Below, piece by piece: positions 38,061 to 51,260 of a DNA stretch of 64,000 nt. Position 1 is the first letter of the stretch. Each line of letters starts with the position of its first letter. The notes below the pieces were generated by a model. The model was not told where the DNA came from and did no database searches. It saw nothing but the letters and a program-made list of their open reading frames with translations. The DNA is from Halosolutus halophilus (lineage in GTDB: Archaea > Halobacteriota > Halobacteria > Halobacteriales > Natrialbaceae): the NCBI RefSeq assembly GCF_022869805.1, contig NZ_CP094974.1, positions 2,232,001 through 2,296,000 of the forward strand, read 5' to 3'. The translations under genes and the position numbers were made by a program.

Positions 38061-38147
38061 ATGGCACGAGATTCGTTCTCAACGCCGGACGAGGATAGAG
38101 GAAGTCGGGGCAACCCGGCTGGACGCGAAATTCCGCGACGAACGTAG
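38061..38147 (+). CDS. Possible 28-residue leader peptide
   Basis: ATG to TAG frame reading MARDSFSTPDEDRG and ending REIPRRT. Its ATG lies where a leaderless transcript from the TATA element should begin, so ribosomes would meet it first. It ends 16 bases before the TTG start of the LeuA-type gene. There is no run of Leu, Ile or Val codons, so it is not a classic attenuation peptide; six Arg codons occur in 28. Unproven. Confidence 0.35.
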   Translation: MARDSFSTPDEDRGSRGNPAGREIPRRT

Positions 38148-42611: not shown

Positions 42612-42790
42612 CGATCTCCCTCACTCCCGACCGTTCTGCCATGGTTCTAGAAGGCAGCCGACGATCGATTACACTCGATCGACTCACCGTCTCCGATCTC
42701 GATTCCGGTACCGATCGCACTGCCGGTGCTTGGTGGTCGCGACCGGGGGAGTCCCGCGTAGCGGTACTCGTCGACGAGGTCGCAGCGAAG

Positions 42791-42816
42791 CGCCGAGCGG
42801 GAGATTTGAACTACGC
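42791..42816 (-). repeat. tRNA-Ser 3'-end copy 1
   Basis: Identical over 26 bases to copy 2 and 21 of 22 to the 3' end of the tRNA-Ser gene (acceptor 3' strand plus T-arm 3' half). Forward-strand start CGCCGAGCGGGAGATTTGAA. Its GGAGATTTGA (42800-42809) is matched by an inverted TCAAATCTCC at 42861-42870. Confidence 0.8.
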
Positions 42817-42938
42817 GAGGACGATCGCCTCACTCCGTTCGGCGCTGCGACTTCTCTCGATCAAATCTCCGAGCCGTTTTGCAGCAACGAAGTGATTCGC
42901 GCCGCTACGCGACGCTCATCGAATTGTCGCTGCAAAAG

Positions 42939-42964
42939 CGCCGAGCGGGAGATTTGAACTACGC
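42939..42964 (-). repeat. tRNA-Ser 3'-end copy 2
   Basis: Second copy, 148 bases from the first and 162 from the tRNA. TTTGAACTA (42953-42961) is matched by inverted TAGTTCAAA at 43016-43024, and inside lies a second pair, CGGGTCGT (42975-42982) with ACGACCCG (43006-43013). A further inverted pair GCTGCAAAA (42929-42937) and TTTTGCAGC (42877-42885) sits directly after the copy on the minus strand. Confidence 0.8.
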
Positions 42965-43100
42965 CGAGACGTTCCGGGTCGTTCACTCCGTTCCCTTCCC
43001 GGGCTACGACCCGTTTAGTTCAAATTCCCCTGGTCGTCGTTTTCCGCTCACAGTTGCGAGCACACGCTACGCGGTGCTCGTGGGTTGGTTCGCGGAAAAG

Positions 43101-43185
43101 CGCCGAGAGGGAGATTTGAACTCCCGAGTCCGTGAGGACAGCAGATTTCGAATCTGCCGCCTTGGCCGGGCTAGGCTATCTCGGC
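43101..43185 (-). tRNA. tRNA-Ser (anticodon CGA)
   Basis: 85 bases on the minus strand. Acceptor GCCGAGA pairs with TCTCGGC, discriminator G, CCA not encoded. Anticodon stem GCAGA/TCTGC closes a 7-base loop TTCGAAA with anticodon CGA, reading UCG. A long variable arm (TGTCCTCACGGACTC) is diagnostic of Ser; T arm GGGAG-TTCAAAT-CTCCC. No intron. Two partial copies of its 3' end lie downstream on the same strand. Confidence 0.95.
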
Positions 43186-51074: not shown

Positions 51075-51095
51075 TGCTCCGTCTGGGATTTGAAC
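51075..51095 (-). repeat. tRNA-Glu 3'-end copy
   Basis: 21 bases identical to the 3' end of the tRNA-Glu gene (51186-51206), 111 bases downstream of it on the minus strand. GGGATTTGA (51085-51093) and GCTCC (51076-51080) are both matched by the inverted TCAAATCCCGGAGC at 51132-51145, so the whole acceptor-plus-T strand could fold on itself. Confidence 0.8.
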
Positions 51096-51185
51096 TACCC
51101 GAAACGTTTCCGATGCTCGCGATTCTTTACGTCAAATCCCGGAGCGTACACTTCCTTCTTCACTCGCTTCGTTCGTTCAGAAGAG

Positions 51186-51260
51186 TGCTCCGTCTGGGAT
51201 TTGAACCCAGGTCATCGGCTCGAAAGGCCGAAATGATTGGCCGGACTACACCAACGGAGC
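51186..51260 (-). tRNA. tRNA-Glu (anticodon TTC)
   Basis: 75 bases. Acceptor GCTCCGT pairs with ACGGAGC, discriminator A. Anticodon stem TCGGC/GCCGA closes the loop CTTTCGA with anticodon TTC. T arm CTGGG-TTCAAAT-CCCAG. Overall like known archaeal tRNA-Glu. No intron, no encoded CCA. A 21-base copy of the 3' end lies downstream. Confidence 0.95.

Follow-up and report, generated by a model that had tools for sequence, protein, structure and literature searches.

The tRNA-Ser(CGA) gene in the window (the whole 64-kb stretch of the Halosolutus halophilus genome that was analysed) is followed by two tandem hairpin units. On balance, these are probably cassettes of a lineage-specific, gene-less hairpin family that sits at the T-loops of Halobacteriales tRNA genes and exchanges there. 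On the sequence comparisons described below, they are one case of an order-wide family: a structured, tRNA-linked element is found in nearly every sampled Halobacteriales genome, and its gain, loss and reshuffling are visible between close relatives. The family is relevant to three questions: what makes tRNA genes recombination hot spots, whether there is folded single-strand recombination in archaea outside integrons, and which role the 3' trailers of haloarchaeal tRNAs play.

Hairpin units in the Halosolutus halophilus genome

The host gene of the array, tRNA-Ser(CGA), lies on the minus strand at 43101-43185 (ARAGORN and Rfam RF00005), as do all array features described here. The 22-mer at its 3' end recurs twice downstream, at 42938-42959 and 42790-42811, each time with 21 of 22 positions identical; the mean number of chance matches in shuffles of the 64 kb was 0.00. 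The start-to-start spacing of these direct repeats delimits a unit 1 of 162 nt (42939-43100) and a unit 2 of 148 nt (42791-42938), which confirms the repeated unit with tRNA 3'-end copies reported in an initial sequence-only reading of this DNA. Both units are matched by R1, a covariance model built from 31 units of relatives (42939-43031, 35.1 bits; 42791-42872, 39.4 bits).

Unit 1 opens with stem 1 (43040-43099), recognised from the sequence, an inverted repeat and motif statistics, whose arms TTTTCCGC (43092-43099) and GCGGAAAA (43040-43047) enclose an internal CGAAC..GTGAG motif. It is followed by an arm complementary to the T-loop and T-stem (GGGGAATTTGAAC, 43018-43030; inverted repeats I1 and I5 and the R1 alignment), by an inner hairpin with the 3' end GGCGTAG (42959-43017; R1 alignment), and by the first copy of the tRNA-Ser 3' end (42939-42958; 22-mer search), which runs from the T-loop to the discriminator base with one mismatch. 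Unit 2 has the same layout. Its stem 1 (42877-42937; inverted repeat I2 and paired changes in orthologues at the same tRNA) has the arms TTTTGCAGC (42929-42937) and GCTGCAAAA (42877-42885), and is followed by the complementary arm TCGGAGATTTGA (42861-42872) and an inner hairpin (42811-42860), both placed by the R1 alignment, and by the second copy (42791-42810; 22-mer search), again with one mismatch. Beyond this last copy, a stem-1-like trailer at 42738-42790 (CTTCGCTGCGACC ... GGTCGCGACC; sequence and direct repeat D1) is possibly the displaced original trailer of tRNA-Ser(CGA). The strand from the tRNA through unit 2 folds better than 100 of 100 dinucleotide shuffles (z = -5.97).

The sequence-only reading had named the two stem pairs, both of which are present, and had taken the differences between them as changed-but-paired stems. 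That comparison is one between paralogues, the two stems belonging to different cassettes; a paired change is seen against the orthologue in another genome (G065), where the second stem reads TTTTACAGCGAC/GTCGCTGTAAAA and here TTTTGCAGCGAC/GCTGCAAAA. The second hairpin in each unit, with its arm complementary to the T-loop and T-stem, goes beyond that reading, as does a further unit at 51075-51185 (minus strand; R1 match at 51075-51143, 30.8 bits). It lies behind tRNA-Glu(TTC) (51186-51260, minus strand; ARAGORN and Rfam), the second unit-bearing tRNA gene of the window, and contains an exact copy of the tRNA 3' 20-mer at 51075-51094. Among the Rfam 15 models, only tRNA and leuA-Halobacteria matched in the window, and none matched the units. 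The leuA-Halobacteria cis-regulatory RNA (38084-38136, plus strand, 70.5 bits) is located just 5' of an isopropylmalate-synthase-like gene and is ordinary; it marks the genome as haloarchaeal.

In a BLAST search with the unit in its own genome, the significant matches and two of the weaker ones were located behind other tRNA genes (Lys, Leu, Val and Arg). In a census of the 45 tRNA genes, a copy of the gene's own 3' 20-mer was found downstream of 12, the first copy being 74-158 nt away; a single further match is accounted for by a tandem pair of tRNA-Asp genes, of which it is the second. The covariance model added tRNA-Pro(CGG) as a thirteenth unit-bearing gene, so that the genome has at least 13. 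Each unit copies the 3' end of its own tRNA. At tRNA-Lys(CTT) there is a unit remnant without a copy, and the majority of the tRNA genes have no unit.

A structured family behind tRNA genes of Halobacteriales

Of 293 Halobacteriales genomes, 153 contain a junction motif, GGCGTRGTTCRAAYC, and these represent 61 of the 88 genera; for the reversed pattern, only three hits are among the matches listed. When 94 junction hits were read in detail, 83 adjoined a tRNA upstream on the same strand, nearly always with the end of that tRNA. The copies are specific to their hosts: over the 12 nt past the T-loop, 186 copies had on average 0.47 mismatches to their own tRNA and 6.49 to other tRNAs, and over that stretch the copy is exact in 155 of 225 distinct units in which a complementary arm could be recognised (at most 4 mismatches in 20 were allowed when these two sets were gathered, a limit that did not apply to the junction-motif set). 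Units occur at 30 isoacceptors in many genera, which supports the earlier suggestion of a tRNA-derived repeat family.

R1 has hits in at least 42 of the 43 Halobacteriales genomes and, among the candidates scored, in none of the 204 genomes from elsewhere in the phylum. In this comparison the 43/204 split follows the order of the listing, the candidates scored per genome were capped, so that the counts are minimum values, and the two groups differ in base composition. The sequence-only reading had proposed such a search and had named a lack of copies at other tRNA genes of relatives as one result that would speak against it; copies were found there. A same-strand tRNA call lies upstream of 49 of 50 inspected R1 loci. 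One of these 49 calls (L363:804-1021, in G025) runs across the unit: ARAGORN reports a tRNA-Ala whose 'intron' apparently covers the hairpin unit, so that the 3' copy counts as the end of the tRNA. The 3' copies can thus mislead tRNA finders, and this locus is a possible source of misannotation.

We considered whether units also occur alone, and rejected this, as the exceptions are explained by inserts, an uncalled tRNA or chance matches. About seven apparent solitary hits are chance matches in coding sequence, and at L122/L139 the tRNA beside the unit was missed by ARAGORN. L056/L138 is a two-unit array at tRNA-Val(GAC) (G002) that is split by a 3.2-kb insert (L138:14938-18125); this insert carries an ABC transporter and transposon-like inverted repeats (GGCTCTGTTGAAACCCT). 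A viral origin was also rejected: in IMG/VR the junction motif turned up just 4 times, each time in a coding-like stretch that lacks a tRNA. On contig 5 of G001 (L066), a second tRNA-Met(CAT) has its own unit, and the sequence beside it corresponds to the surroundings of a different tRNA in the Halosolutus halophilus genome, which suggests that a tRNA gene and its unit may travel together.

The arrays share the layout tRNA - (stem 1 - complementary arm - inner hairpin - copy)n - trailer, where n is 1 in 112 arrays, 2 in 49, 3 in 14, 4 in 4 and 5 in 2, and the copy spans the T-loop to the discriminator base. Most units are about 100-180 bp long, consist of two hairpins and the copy, and contain no genes; the gap between tRNA and copy is 83-158 nt (5th to 95th percentile). 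Stem 1 carries the motif CGARC..GYGAG in 149 of 214 cases and its reverse complement in 9. The arms read GATTTGAAC/GTTCAAATC, also written GATTTGAA(C) / GTTCAAATC. Pairing of the arm with the copy is at or above 0.88 at positions 1-9 and only 0.22-0.35 at positions 14-20; pairing with the whole tRNA 3' end was rejected, since chance levels are exceeded only in the T-loop and at the beginning of the T-stem. The commonest internal loops of the inner hairpin are STAGA/GCGTRG; CCCTG/CTCCGG, CTACG/CATCGAG and CAGGGAG/ACCGTGG are also found. The inner hairpins do not sort by isoacceptor, and vertical sorting was not seen. A universal C(GNA)G apical triloop, considered as a signature of DNA hairpins, was rejected, as a simple test found it in only 53 of 225 units.

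The arms and inner stem covary. Among 31 gap-free units there are 59 double-change cells, compared with 22.9 +/- 3.7 after shuffling (0 of 500 shuffles) and at most 18 in slid controls. The sequence-only reading had proposed selection for structure, to be abandoned if no significant covariation was found; the double changes support it. On the tRNA-sense strand, G-T exceeds A-C, with composition-stratified odds ratios of 2.6 (p 2e-6) and 1.7 (p 0.04), and this strand is more stable than its complement in 162 of 225 units; since the sequences are related, the p values of these structure statistics are optimistic. Together, the covariation, the G-T preference and the stability of the sense strand show that the fold belongs to RNA or single-stranded DNA of that strand. 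Both fit equally: the strand preference is equally expected for RNA and does not discriminate it from DNA.

If the fold acts as RNA, the units would form a functional trailer that is transcribed with the tRNA, with hairpins that may serve in termination or 3' processing, an option also listed in the sequence-only reading, or may act as a decoy by pairing with the 3' end of the tRNA, and selection would keep arms, copy and stems matched. The covariation, the G-T preference and the greater stability of the sense strand are consistent with this, as is the T-rich start of stem 1 directly behind the tRNA in 106 of 152 cases. However, such a fold leaves the identity of the acceptor copy unexplained, as the acceptor part has no partner inside the unit and still equals the tRNA. 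In addition, a unit is missing from roughly half of the orthologous tRNA genes or more and from most tRNA genes of its own genome, and unit order and number vary at the same site, all of which is difficult to reconcile with a trailer function. Judged from these sequence patterns, a functional RNA trailer seems rather doubtful, although it is the strongest of the competing readings.

Gain, loss and reshuffling of units

Among orthologous genes sampled irrespective of unit presence, and with the genome studied here included, tRNA-Glu(TTC) has the copy in 15 of 29 genomes and tRNA-Ser(CGA) in 8 of 30. Decayed remnants of units are found in other genomes at these two genes, and eroded copies are common. 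Certain units share 90-97% identity from one genome to another, in several cases across genera, while their flanks are at 0.40-0.47, which is approximately the random level. A clean empty site was sought in genomes of the same genus: at tRNA-Val(GAC), the alignment reaches the end of the tRNA from upstream, and there is none downstream, a result that is not decisive. Presence and absence can also be explained by deletion between the 20-bp repeats. Stem 1 of the tRNA-Glu units is recognisable across several families, which indicates that some units are old and mainly inherited.

Order and number of units change between syntenic sites. At the tRNA-Glu site, where both flanks are recognisably the same, G049 has units A-B, Natrinema mahii has B-A, and G026 has B followed by a decayed A. 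At tRNA-Ser(TGA), two genomes of one genus with syntenic flanks on both sides have two units (G014) and five units (G041). With X and Y denoting stem types and P, Q and R hairpin types, the modules are X-P, Y-Q in G014 and X-Q, X-P, Y-R, X-P, Y-R in G041, so that the same stem is joined to different hairpins; both arrays finish in a type X trailer. Identical tandem units occur at tRNA-Lys (111 bp), tRNA-Phe (122 bp) and tRNA-Glu(CTC) (106 bp). In 25 of 181 arrays, the trailer behind the last copy is similar (>0.65) to a stem 1 from the same array; the control gave 1. The changes in order and number, the shared units and the tandem identity fit poorly with a fixed trailer device and well with recombining cassettes.

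In the mechanism that we propose, a cassette would start with the T-loop (TTCRAAYC), the 3' strand of the T-stem, the 3' strand of the acceptor and the discriminator, a part that would keep the tRNA intact. Stem 1 would come next, then the hairpin with its 5' arm complementary to the T-loop and T-stem, and the cassette would end just before the next T-loop copy. The downstream copy would then represent a tail, either that of the tRNA or that of the preceding cassette, which was displaced. Through exchange at the T-loop copies and complementary arms, cassettes could be gained, lost, duplicated and reordered. We infer that the T-loop sequence is the point of insertion and exchange, with participation of the folded hairpin. 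Neither a linked recombinase gene nor a circular form of the units was observed, which counts against this mechanism.

Some of the same observations may be produced passively, by an ancient trailer hairpin that was copied, deleted and homogenised without a dedicated enzyme or function. The 20-bp tRNA-end repeats would then undergo ordinary recombination with each other or slip during replication, and hairpin-templated correction would add to this. Direct repeats of 20 bp about 100 bp apart, the identical tandem units, the frequency of eroded copies and the module swaps at short T-loop homologies all agree with this. However, correction of hairpins should give perfect palindromes, whereas the mismatched loops STAGA/GCGTRG are kept across genera, and restriction to one order with presence in nearly all its genomes calls for a special cause. 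We consider a purely passive origin unlikely.

Relation to integrons, repeats and integrative elements

The recombining cassettes resemble integron arrays in several respects. Short units are arrayed at one site and vary in order and number, the unit boundary lies at G^TT, and the unit folds as an inverted repeat with paired outer arms, an unpaired centre, an inner stem and a variable apical part, as in attC. The attC core sites have the consensus RYYYAAC ... GTTRRRY. The arms GATTTGAAC/GTTCAAATC do not fit this consensus and share only GTT with it. Unlike integron cassettes, the haloarchaeal units carry no genes, their site is the tRNA T-loop and each unit restores its own tRNA end; no integron integrase gene was found in the 12 kb around the array in the window. 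We do not class the units as an integron, given the different arm consensus, the lack of genes and the failure to link an integrase to them. We put forward only tentatively that there is a dedicated, integron-like system in Halobacteriales, in which a candidate recombinase would act on folded, T-loop-armed hairpins of the tRNA-sense strand and build gene-less, tRNA-restoring arrays.

The units share with REP/BIME sequences (PMC3733652, PMC12306157) the character of short extragenic palindromes whose structure is conserved on one strand. REP sequences are dispersed between genes, whereas the units occur only behind tRNA genes and with a copy of the local gene end; the genome-wide intergenic dispersal of REP/RAYT (Y1 transposase) is not seen, 49 of the 50 inspected R1 hits being behind tRNA genes. 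The passages of these two papers on tRNA or archaea do not describe such units. Haloarchaeal MITE and PATE elements, which are named in PMC3119063, are likewise short gene-less repeats with an inverted-repeat character, but the units have no recognised transposon family ends, contain a 20-nt tRNA-specific copy each, and are found only at tRNA T-loops. No description of the hairpin units was found in searches of open-access papers, an outcome that is not proof of absence; the units are apparently an undescribed kind of element.

Integrative elements that target tRNA genes by means of archaeal tyrosine recombinases have been reviewed (PMC8371274). Like them, the units lie at the 3' part of the tRNA, which is restored by the incoming DNA, with a displaced copy downstream of the intact tRNA. 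Such elements are kilobases long and bear integrases, whereas the units are about 100-180 bp long and gene-less, occur at many tRNAs and have their own hairpin; between tRNA and copy, most arrays have about 100 nt of hairpins and no integrase-bearing DNA. It is very improbable that the units are nested att-site scars left by tyrosine integrases of conventional elements at the tRNA 3' end, as the sequence-only reading had proposed among other options: haloarchaeal proviruses do leave tRNA 3'-end copies, and partial tRNA copies in Haloquadratum are tied to prophages (PMC3119063), but prophage-type copies are kilobases away, the gap here is filled by a conserved hairpin pair, and one integrative element has its own attR separate from the unit beside it.

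That element, of 2.6 kb, lies between tRNA-Pro(TGG) and its unit in G001 (L055/L137, L137:740-3550). It has two archaellin/pilin-like ORFs and the N-terminal part of a putative tyrosine integrase (read by eye), and ends in a repeat of the tRNA end of about 14 bp, the attR. The unit at this gene is a separate chromosomal feature and not the att site of the element. The integrase frame is interrupted where it meets the tRNA-end repeat, a pattern like that of SSV-type integration, in which the integrase gene is split. A short conserved stretch, whose translation looks like a small CxxC zinc-finger-like protein, is found again and again 3' of several different tRNA genes, including tRNA-Ala(CGC), Glu(CTC), Met(CAT), Pro(GGG) and others in the Halosolutus halophilus genome, and is also present at L137:3155-3346; these stretches are possibly remnants of integrated elements.
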